A stretch of DNA of 47,410 bases, taken from Parcubacteria group bacterium GW2011_GWA2_42_14 (GTDB taxonomy: Bacteria > Patescibacteriota > Minisyncoccia > Sungbacterales > GWA2-42-14). Positions 18,156 to 45,352 of the stretch are shown piece by piece. How positions within the stretch are numbered: position 1 is the first letter of the stretch; each line of letters starts with the position of its first letter. The position numbers and the translations under genes were made by a program. The notes below the pieces were generated by a model, which made no database searches, had not been told where the DNA came from, and saw only the letters and a program-made list of their open reading frames with translations. The stretch spans positions 1 to 47,410 of the forward strand of contig LCCV01000015.1 of the NCBI GenBank assembly GCA_000998135.1, written 5' to 3'.

Positions 18156-18269
18156 AAAACATTAGTAAATTTTGTTTATGGGCTGAATCCGACCCTAAAA
18201 CAAATTATGTTAATAATTTGTTTGGGTTTAGAATCGCCAGATCATTCCGCTGGAAGCGGAATGATTTAG

Positions 18270-18342
18270 GGAGACATAGGGGAATCGAACCCCTGCTAGC
18301 AGTTCCACAAACTGCTGTGCTAACCGTTACACCAATGTCTCC
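18270..18342 (-). tRNA. tRNA-His (GTG)
   Basis: Anticodon arm gcagt-ttgtgga-actgc; T arm agggg-ttcgatt-cccct; G-1:C73 pair encoded. Confidence 0.88.
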
Positions 18343-18535
18343 ATTATAACAAATAATTATGCTAACAACTAAAAATACTAATGAATTAATCGCTCCCGGG
18401 AGGAATCGATTCGTCTTCTCGACGAAATCCCGGCCGATTTTTAACGGCTCGCGGGACGCTCGCCTAAATCGTCCGTCGGAGCAAAGCAGTTTGCTCCGAC
18501 CCCCATATCCGCTAGAAGTCCGGAGTTCTATCTTC

Positions 18536-18634
18536 ACCCCGTTAGACACCCCCCCGGCAGGAATCGAACCCGCATCAGCGCCTTAGAAGAGCGCTGCTTT
18601 ATCCATTAAGCTACAGGGGGTTGTCTAACGGGGT
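18536..18634. repeat. 13-bp inverted repeat flanking tRNA-Arg (18536..18548 / 18622..18634)
   Basis: accccgttagaca and tgtctaacggggt. Confidence 0.9.
18549..18620 (-). tRNA. tRNA-Arg (TCT)
   Basis: ccccctgtagcttaatggataaagca-gcgct-cttctaa-ggcgc-...gcgggttcgattcctgc-cgggggg-g. Confidence 0.88.
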
Positions 18635-18784
18635 AAGTTGAACTACGGGGGCAGAAGTTAAGAACCTTGAATGGTTATTCGCGTGCATCCGCTTTATCAT
18701 CTGCGTTTATCCGCTTCTATGAGCAACTAAACTGTGTTGGAAAATAAAAAGATTATTGCAATGCGCTATTTCCGGCATTAAGCT

Positions 18785-19084
18785 TTATCTAAACATCGGC
18801 GGAGCATCCTTAATGCCGAATTGCAAAATAAAATCAAATTTATTTTTTCTCTCATCCAGCATATTGATAATTTCAGTCAGGTCTTTCCTTTTTAAGGTTA
18901 TGGTATAATCACTTATCACGGCGGTATTTACAACTTTATAACCATACACATAAAAAATCCAAATATCAAGCAAGGGCCCTGTAGACACGAGGCCGACAAC
19001 CGCCCAAAGCGAAATATAAACAACAGATTTGTAGGAGAAAATCTTTTTTAAATCCTCAATTTTTTTTATGTTCGGCAGAACCAT
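18785..19084 (-). CDS. Hypothetical membrane protein, last gene of the pilus cluster
   Basis: 99-aa ORF with one TM segment, same strand and order as the pil genes. Confidence 0.55.
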   Translation of the reverse strand: MVLPNIKKIEDLKKIFSYKSVVYISLWAVVGLVSTGPLLDIWIFYVYGYKVVNTAVISDYTITLKRKDLTEIINMLDERKNKFDFILQFGIKDAPPMFR

Positions 19085-38958: not shown

Positions 38959-39015
38959 ATTCAGGAATTTGATCTGTCTTAATTGGTCGGACCGCTGGGA
39001 ATCAATTTGCTTCTC

Positions 39016-39165
39016 GCAAATTCCCGGGAATGCCCCCAGCATTCCCTTCGATTCCCAGCAACCCTCTTTGCATATCTTTAGTTGTATCGGGCAAATTCCC
39101 GGGAATGCCCCCAGCATTCCCTTCGATTCCCAGCAACCCTCTTTGCATATCTTTAGTTGTATCGG
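39016..39165. repeat. Two tandem identical 75-bp units next to a tRNA 3'-half copy
   Basis: gcaaattcccgggaatgcccccagcattcccttcgattcccagcaaccctctttgcatatctttagttgtatcgg twice. Confidence 0.93.
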
Positions 39166-39236
39166 GCTACTGGGAATCGAACCCAGTCTACCTAAATTCC
39201 TTTTCGGAATTTCCAGAAAATGCCCCCGGCATTTTC

Positions 39237-39334
39237 GTTGAGAACTTATTCGGGGAGCCGGGAATCGAACCCGGTCTACCTGCTCCCAAAGCAGGCGTAC
39301 TACCGGTATACTACTCCCCGAATAAGTTCTCAAC
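39237..39334. repeat. 14-bp inverted repeat flanking tRNA-Pro, continuous with the acceptor stem (39237..39250 / 39321..39334)
   Basis: gttgagaacttatt and aataagttctcaac. Confidence 0.93.
39250..39320 (-). tRNA. tRNA-Pro (TGG)
   Basis: cggggagtagtataccggtagtacg-cctgc-tttggga-gcagg-taga-ccgggttcgattcccgg-ctccccg-a. Confidence 0.88.
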
Positions 39335-39413
39335 CCCAAAGCAGGCGTACTGCCGGTATACTACGGCCCGTTTCATATGAACTGCTTTCACAAAAGCACA
39401 ATGTTTCACGCTT

Positions 39414-45019: not shown

Positions 45020-45352
45020 GGCACGGTGGAAAAGAGGATAAAAGTAATGTTATTACTTTTATCCGGAAGTCTGTCCCGACTTTCATAGAAAGTCGAGGAT
45101 CCTCAATAACTGAAAATTGCAAAACATGGCATGGTAGCCAAGAGGTAAGGCGGGAGTCTGCAAAACTCCTATGCGAGGGTTCGAATCCCTCCCATGCCTC
45201 TGCGATTTTCAGTTATCGGGACAAAACTTTTATTCGCGGGGTCAAAAATGAACTATTTCATTTTTGACGGGAAATTTAGCCGAGGCTCCGACCAAGGCGG
45301 AAAAAATTTCCCCGGGTTTTTCCGAGGAGGAAAAACAATTCCCGCCTGCGCC
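45020..45352 (+). other. Split degenerate tRNA-Cys-like sequence enclosing the intact tRNA-Cys
   Basis: ggcacggtggaaaagagg ... ggaagtctg | insert | caaaacttttattcgcgggg...; insert splits ctg^caaa of the anticodon loop; extra hairpin 45036..45064. Confidence 0.55.
45128..45199 (+). tRNA. tRNA-Cys (GCA)
   Basis: ggcatggtagccaagaggtaaggc-g-ggagt-ctgcaaa-actcc-tatgc-gagggttcgaatccctc-ccatgcc-t. Confidence 0.92.

Follow-up and report, generated by a model that had tools for sequence, protein, structure and literature searches.

Anatomy of the nested tRNA-Arg locus

The window analysed here is a stretch of 47,410 nucleotides (contig LCCV01000015.1) from Parcubacteria group bacterium GW2011_GWA2_42_14, assembly GCA_000998135.1, the genome under study (G000). 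On its minus strand, at 18391-18652, an intact tRNA-Arg(UCU) gene lies within the D-loop of a second tRNA-Arg copy, which is recognisable yet degenerate. Such a nest had been proposed in an earlier note made from the letters alone, and every element of it was found, on the same strand and at the same place. Read 5' to 3', the order is exon 1 of the outer tRNA, the tRNA-bearing insert, exon 2, a second insert that we call E2, and exon 3:

18638..18652, minus strand: outer tRNA-Arg exon 1, the acceptor 5' strand and D-stem 5' strand (GCCCCCG TA GTTC AA), homologous to layer B (see below) of G010, G011 and G023
18532..18637, minus strand: insert CTTACCCCGTTAGACA-[tRNA]-TGTCTAACGGGGTGAAG within the outer D-loop; the unit ends recur in relatives
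18622..18637, minus strand: left stem arm CTTACCCCGTTAGACA, from pairing and fold
18549..18620, minus strand: inner intact tRNA-Arg(UCU), from ARAGORN and Rfam RF00005
18532..18548, minus strand: right stem arm TGTCTAACGGGGTGAAG, from pairing and fold
18499..18531, minus strand: outer tRNA-Arg exon 2, the D-stem 3' strand, anticodon arm (one base short), variable region, T-stem 5' strand and T54
18410..18498 (89 nt), minus strand: E2, a three-hairpin insert in the outer T-loop between T54 and T55 (covariance model match 18410-18501, 96 bits)
18391..18409, minus strand: outer tRNA-Arg exon 3, the 3' part of the T-loop, T-stem 3' strand, acceptor 3' strand and discriminator G

The inner tRNA-Arg(tct) was called by ARAGORN and scores 64.7 bits against Rfam RF00005. 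No other intact Arg(UCU) gene was found in the genome, our survey of which drew on the stretches around tRNAs and elements. The leader and trailer of the inner tRNA, ACCCCGTTAGACA and TGTCTAACGGGGT, pair perfectly over 13 bp, as the earlier note had it, and over 15 bp when G-U pairs are counted. The insert with this stem folds into a single long helix capped by the cloverleaf (-58.7 kcal/mol, z = -7.2, equalled by 0 of 200 shuffles), and the fold of the whole nest region has z = -5.7.

The outer gene had been described as interrupted once, by the tRNA insert. That interruption is real, but the gene is broken at two sites, the D-loop (18532-18637) and the T-loop (18410-18498), and its 3' part lies far downstream because E2 splits the T-loop. 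The D-stem GTTC/GAAC is intact and the acceptor GCCCCCG/CGGGAGC has one mismatch, in agreement with the earlier layout, but the anticodon arm does not conform to it: when both inserts are removed and the D-loop TGG is restored, ARAGORN calls a tRNA with the anticodon TTC, since one base is missing from that arm. Direct joining of the three exons, with no TGG restored, gave no ARAGORN call.

Nested tRNAs elsewhere in the genome

The window contains two further nests, in tRNA-Pro and tRNA-Cys:

39335..39370, minus strand: Pro nest, outer tRNA-Pro 5' part
39249..39321, minus strand: Pro nest, inner tRNA-Pro(UGG), with the inverted repeat GTTGAGAACTTATT/AATAAGTTCTCAAC on either side
39163..39193, minus strand: Pro nest, outer tRNA-Pro 3' part
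45020..45073, plus strand: Cys nest, outer tRNA-Cys 5' parts including a D-loop hairpin
45074..45221, plus strand: Cys nest, insert splitting anticodon bases 34/35 of the outer tRNA-Cys and containing an intact tRNA-Cys (45128-45200)
45222..45352, plus strand: Cys nest, outer tRNA-Cys 3' parts, the T-loop holding an E2 copy (model match 45240-45336)

Leader/trailer stems of at least 11 bp flank 11 of the 43 tRNAs of the genome, where 0.1 would be expected from shuffled and 0.45 from swapped flanks. Fragments of a tRNA of the same isotype occur in the flanks of about 20 of the 43 and often rank top against the 42 other tRNAs. Nests are seen in the D-loop (Arg(UCU), and Ala(GGC), whose outer tRNA is otherwise intact), in the anticodon loop (Pro(UGG), Ile(UAU), Val(CAC) and Cys) and in the T-loop (Arg(GCG)). 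The Ile(GAU) nest consists of a single outer tRNA-Ile with one tRNA-Ile in its D-loop and a second in its anticodon loop, and the Leu(CAG) nest is three deep. One-sided 3' copies with T-loop hairpins accompany Leu(UAA), Leu(UAG), Glu(CUC) and Gln(CUG), and cargo-free hairpins were found in the D-loop of a tRNA-Asp. In the Arg(GCG) nest, the outer 5' and 3' parts do not differ from the inner tRNA in sequence, and the inner leader nearly repeats the outer trailer in inverted orientation; in the Pro nest, the 5' halves of inner and outer tRNA are nearly identical.

Insertion often occurred without loss of a base (Cys 34/35, Ile 35/36, Arg T54/T55). The outer acceptor stems form 7/7 pairs in 15 of 21 loci, as compared with an average of 3.4/7 when strands are swapped between loci. 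The earlier note had staked its layout on outer sequences scoring better than shuffled ones, and they do: with exon boundaries set by hand from native tRNA sequence, ARAGORN called 11 of 20 directly joined outer tRNAs, taken from the present locus and from others here and in other genomes, and gave most of them the expected isotype; it called none of 6000 shuffles.

Several other arrangements were noticed near these tRNAs. At the Ile locus L003 (G000 C10:84213-84570), two different intact tRNA-Ile genes lie in one outer tRNA-Ile that also has E2 in its T-loop, and the three-deep Leu(CAG) nest (L129, G000 C13, 560-860) combines two CCCCGTTA-type stems that differ from each other. At 38990-39162 of the window (minus strand), downstream of the Pro nest, a stretch of 73 nt that carries an inverted T-arm and a GGGAATGC-TGGGG-GCATTCCC hairpin is present twice in tandem. 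In G000 C8:41273-42172, second copies of tRNAs (Asn, Lys, Tyr, Leu, Ile, Glu) are densely arrayed and could be of phage or plasmid origin.

Nests in related genomes and the layer series

Absence of the arrangement from every relative had been named beforehand as a ground for rejecting it. The Arg nest recurs within the same family and order, and nested tRNAs are present in about 20 related genomes, where the isotypes include Pro, Ile, Ala, Val, Leu, Gly, Glu and Cys besides Arg; Ala, Glu, Gly and Val nests occur in further genomes. The named carriers include Jorgensenbacteria, Liptonbacteria, Uhrbacteria and Giovannonibacteria. Insertions in D-, anticodon-, variable- and T-loops were all seen, to a depth of up to three. 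The earlier note had taken differing insertion points as an argument against one ancestral duplication, and a single such event was rejected, as both hosts and insertion points differ between loci.

The Arg(UCU) nests form a series of layers. In G011, the outermost tRNA, A, is split in its anticodon loop and holds B; in G010, A contains B and B contains C, the nest spanning two contigs; B containing C is found in the present genome, in G022 and in Patescibacterium L085. Copies of layer B are 81-91% identical to one another. The outer tRNA-Arg of the window belongs with them and is homologous to intact tRNA-Arg(UCU) of relatives, with 82-91% identity to layer B of G010, G011 and G023 as against 77% to its own inner tRNA. 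Layer C is closer to A (up to 93%) than to B (77% within G000). Within one family, the same C unit sits in the D-loop of a type-II tRNA in G000 and near the T-stem of a type-I tRNA in G001 and G003. Between relatives the state of the shell ranges from intact to nearly lost; in G002, G004 and G005 it is nearly or wholly unrecognisable around an intact inner tRNA.

Isotype of guest and host

Among 30 tRNAs with stems of at least 11 bp, the flanks matched the tRNA's own isotype best of 20 in 24 cases, and in three further cases the own isotype came second, behind an adjacent intact tRNA only. With a balanced library the own isotype ranked first for 18 of the 30 stem-flanked tRNAs (0.3% with permuted flanks) and for 18 of 75 tRNAs with stems of at most 8 bp. 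The same rule holds for the elements bounded by CCCCGTTAG...CTAACGGGG: cargo and flanks agree in isotype in 15 of the 16 that carry a tRNA, the sixteenth being confounded by an adjacent tRNA-Gly, and the flanks of the 31 without cargo score at background tRNA similarity.

The palindrome-ended unit and its cargo-free kin

The tRNA-bearing units have the ends CTT[G/A]CCCCGTTAG ... CTAACGGGGTGAAG, with CTT[G/A] and TGAAG as flanks, and the CCCCGTTAG termini are common to these units and to cargo-free elements that resemble miniature inverted-repeat transposable elements (MITEs). There are 59 CCCCGTTAGA termini in the genome, mostly paired about 100 bp apart. Terminal inverted repeats, which define MITEs, are present as 18 exact CCCCGTTAGA pairs, with 0 for a reversed-pattern control. 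The flanks CTT[G/A] and TGAAG are almost specific to tRNA cargo: in 392 genomes of the class, all five exact CTTG...TGAAG units of the size of the Arg unit hold a tRNA, and no empty hairpin with such ends was found. Some cargo-free copies are bordered by 4-bp target duplications (TAAA, TTTA, TGAA, TCAA, CCAG), and duplications also surround two nests, CAAG on both sides of a Gly nest and TATA at the Ile(UAU) nest.

Short CCCCGTTAGA hairpins of 27, 36 and 68 bp (L103 447-473, L104 466-501 and L105 461-528 in G000) apparently lie within protein-coding genes. A RAYT-like Y1 transposase gene is located at L138 1240-1968 (G000 C4), with palindromes TTTAGCGAAGTC/GACTTCGCTAAA within and near it, partly in frame as AKSDFAK.

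Several candidate vehicles were considered and rejected. No palindrome in common with the units was found at the borders of the RAYT gene, and a 2.8-kb CCCCGTTAGA pair on contig C12, which might have been an autonomous transposon, encloses ordinary genes. The exact unit was not found in 2.9 million viral contigs, which speaks against a phage. The unit has boxes like the GTTRRRY/RYYYAAC of integron attC sites, but full boxes are missing in other nests and in cargo-free copies, and 4-bp duplications occur; this case was judged by reading.

E2, the second insert

E2 is an undescribed family of three-hairpin inserts with strong covariation: over seven copies, 18 of 34 pairs show changes on both sides. 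Its covariance model (R1) finds matches in 17 of 26 related genomes, with up to 14 per genome and two in the window, at 18410-18501 (minus strand) and 45240-45336 (plus strand); no Rfam family matches it. The insertion point of E2 immediately follows GG, which is very often G18G19 in the D-loop of a tRNA; further sites include T-arms, a variable arm and places outside tRNAs. The automatic flank test under-detects copies in degenerate tRNAs, and those were placed by reading. The analysis brings to light two families of structured mobile palindromes whose targets include tRNA loops in Patescibacteria.

Upstream of an intact tRNA-Val, a tRNA-Val 5' fragment (D-arm TAGCGAAGTGG) is followed by E2 at L006, L163 and L165, which represent three genera and two families. 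The conservation of this fragment is oddly high for a pseudogene.

Probable replacement of a tRNA from inside

We consider it probable that a palindrome-ended mobile unit carrying a tRNA entered a resident tRNA of the same isotype and took over its function, and that the shell is decaying. A unit with a complete tRNA-Arg(UCU) would have landed in the D-loop of the resident tRNA-Arg(UCU), and the guest, on its stem of 13-15 bp, would have assumed the decoding role. The enzymes that normally process tRNA ends would presumably free the guest from its precursor, although the stem of paired leader and trailer may first have to be cut, perhaps by RNase III, before RNase P and the 3' nucleases could act. 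The host would have become a decaying shell that also gained E2 in its T-loop, and repeated rounds would produce tRNAs within tRNAs, the newest innermost. The presence of the same inner unit in different hosts and positions within one family is as expected of a moving unit. Replacement is supported because no intact Arg(UCU) gene besides the inner one was found, the state of the shell varies between relatives, and the ends match those of cargo-free elements. The isotype match is most simply attributed to selection, since only a guest that reads the same codons would rescue the tRNA it breaks. The data themselves show the nesting, the agreement in isotype, its recurrence at several tRNA positions and in many genomes, the termini common to units and MITE-like elements and the A-B-C layers; transposition, the function of the guest and the decay of the shell are inferred from them.

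Several observations weigh against this interpretation. The flanks of the Arg unit, CTTG/TGAAG or, as read at the Arg copy, CTTA/TGAA, do not form a 4-bp target duplication. No tRNA-bearing unit was found outside a tRNA, though free transposition should sometimes place one there. No link between the units and a transposase was established; the sole RAYT-like Y1 transposase detected by PF01797 showed no ends in common with them. The Pro, Cys, Lys and Arg(GCG) stems are unrelated in sequence and are without CCCCGTTAG ends; there must therefore be more than one element family or mechanism, and what the cases share is an insert that forms a hairpin within a tRNA loop, with no single sequence common to all. 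Lastly, host and guest are identical in the Arg(GCG) nest, which local copying would explain no less well.

The strongest competing explanation is local copying, which we think unlikely. Here a tRNA gene would be copied into one of its own loops through template switching or the repair of a break at a pre-existing palindrome, with no transposing unit involved. The Arg(GCG) nest, with its identical outer and inner parts and its inverted near-copy of the outer trailer, agrees with such an event; the nearly identical Pro 5' halves, the confinement of tRNA-bearing units to tRNAs and the cargo-free hairpins in the tRNA-Asp D-loop are also in its favour. The Arg(UCU) guest, however, is no copy of its host, given that C resembles A and not B, and one guest unit occupies different hosts within one family. 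The common element ends and target duplications likewise point to insertion.

Another possibility, which we rank below local copying and regard as rather doubtful, is that the inserts are intron-like and leave the outer tRNA during RNA processing, or that the guest is excised and the outer halves stay paired through the stem as a split tRNA, so that both tRNAs function. Removal of the insert does give recognisable tRNAs of the right isotype at many loci, the insertions are often lossless, and the outer acceptors mostly remain fully paired despite their differing sequences; GC-rich complementary stretches flanking the halves are moreover the anatomy of the split tRNAs of Nanoarchaeum equitans (PMC3491384). 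Yet an archaeal-type splicing endonuclease is absent from the genome (no match to PF01974, for which the control was positive in 4/4 archaea), and resemblance to the RtcB ligase is limited to a 39-residue scrap. In the outer tRNA-Arg, the anticodon arm is shifted and the acceptor has a mismatch; little of the shell is left in G002, G004 and G005, where the inner tRNA is intact; and an outer anticodon would duplicate one already supplied from inside. The specific version in which the outer tRNA-Arg still functions and one nested gene yields two tRNAs, either through an unknown splicing activity that removes the insert or through excision of the inner tRNA, the outer one then serving in two pieces that the 13-15 bp stem keeps together, with E2 as a new class of tRNA insert removed in the same way, appears less probable again. 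Chance resemblance or an assembly artefact is scarcely credible: several nests do lie near contig ends of fragmented assemblies, but the shuffle and permutation controls contradict it, and tRNA units occur in many independent assemblies, including the one-contig G012, and in named public records.

If replacement by mobile units is correct, essential and highly conserved tRNA genes have repeatedly been broken and replaced from inside. A genome could in this way swap an essential RNA gene and yet never be without it, and the nests would be a fossil record of successive replacements, to be read from the outside inward. Outer copies interrupted in this manner are missed when tRNAs are annotated by standard means.

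Comparison with known systems

With MITEs and the palindromic elements of Rickettsia the units share their short, non-coding, palindrome-ended and multi-copy nature, the cargo-free copies with 4-bp duplications and the small hairpins apparently in protein genes. They differ in that some carry a complete tRNA and sit within a tRNA of the same isotype. Integrative elements with tRNA attachment sites also insert into tRNA genes and supply sequence that preserves tRNA function. Those elements restore one end of the tRNA by means of a site-specific recombinase, whereas the present unit is about 100 nt long, is without an integrase and places a whole second tRNA inside a split host.

A cmscan of 18200-18800 to E = 10 gave the tRNA and sub-threshold matches only, so that a group I intron or another known Rfam RNA was rejected. 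One known RNA that bears comparison is bacterial Y RNA (RF01053), which has a tRNA-like module on a long stem; here the inner module is a canonical tRNA, and the match reached 27.1 bits where the gathering score is 80. In the open-access literature, we found no such arrangement under tRNA-in-tRNA genes, tRNA introns of the Candidate Phyla Radiation or mobile tRNA genes, most subscription papers and preprints being outside that scope; as only open-access sources were searched, the absence of a precedent is no proof.

The tRNA introns of archaea of the order Thermoproteales are, in a passage of PMC10714607 that cites Fujishima 2010, insertions proposed to move between tRNAs. In contrast to these, there is no splicing endonuclease here, and the insert holds another tRNA of the same isotype. 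A bulge-helix-bulge is absent from the junction, where CTTR-CCCC/GGGG-TGAAG has a single bulged G or a small internal loop. The split tRNA halves of N. equitans have GC-rich, reverse-complementary stretches at their borders (PMC3491384), but they are encoded separately and trans-spliced, whereas the halves described here flank one intact tRNA in cis. The nearest reported systems are the split and intron-bearing tRNAs of archaea and the palindromic elements in Rickettsia genes.
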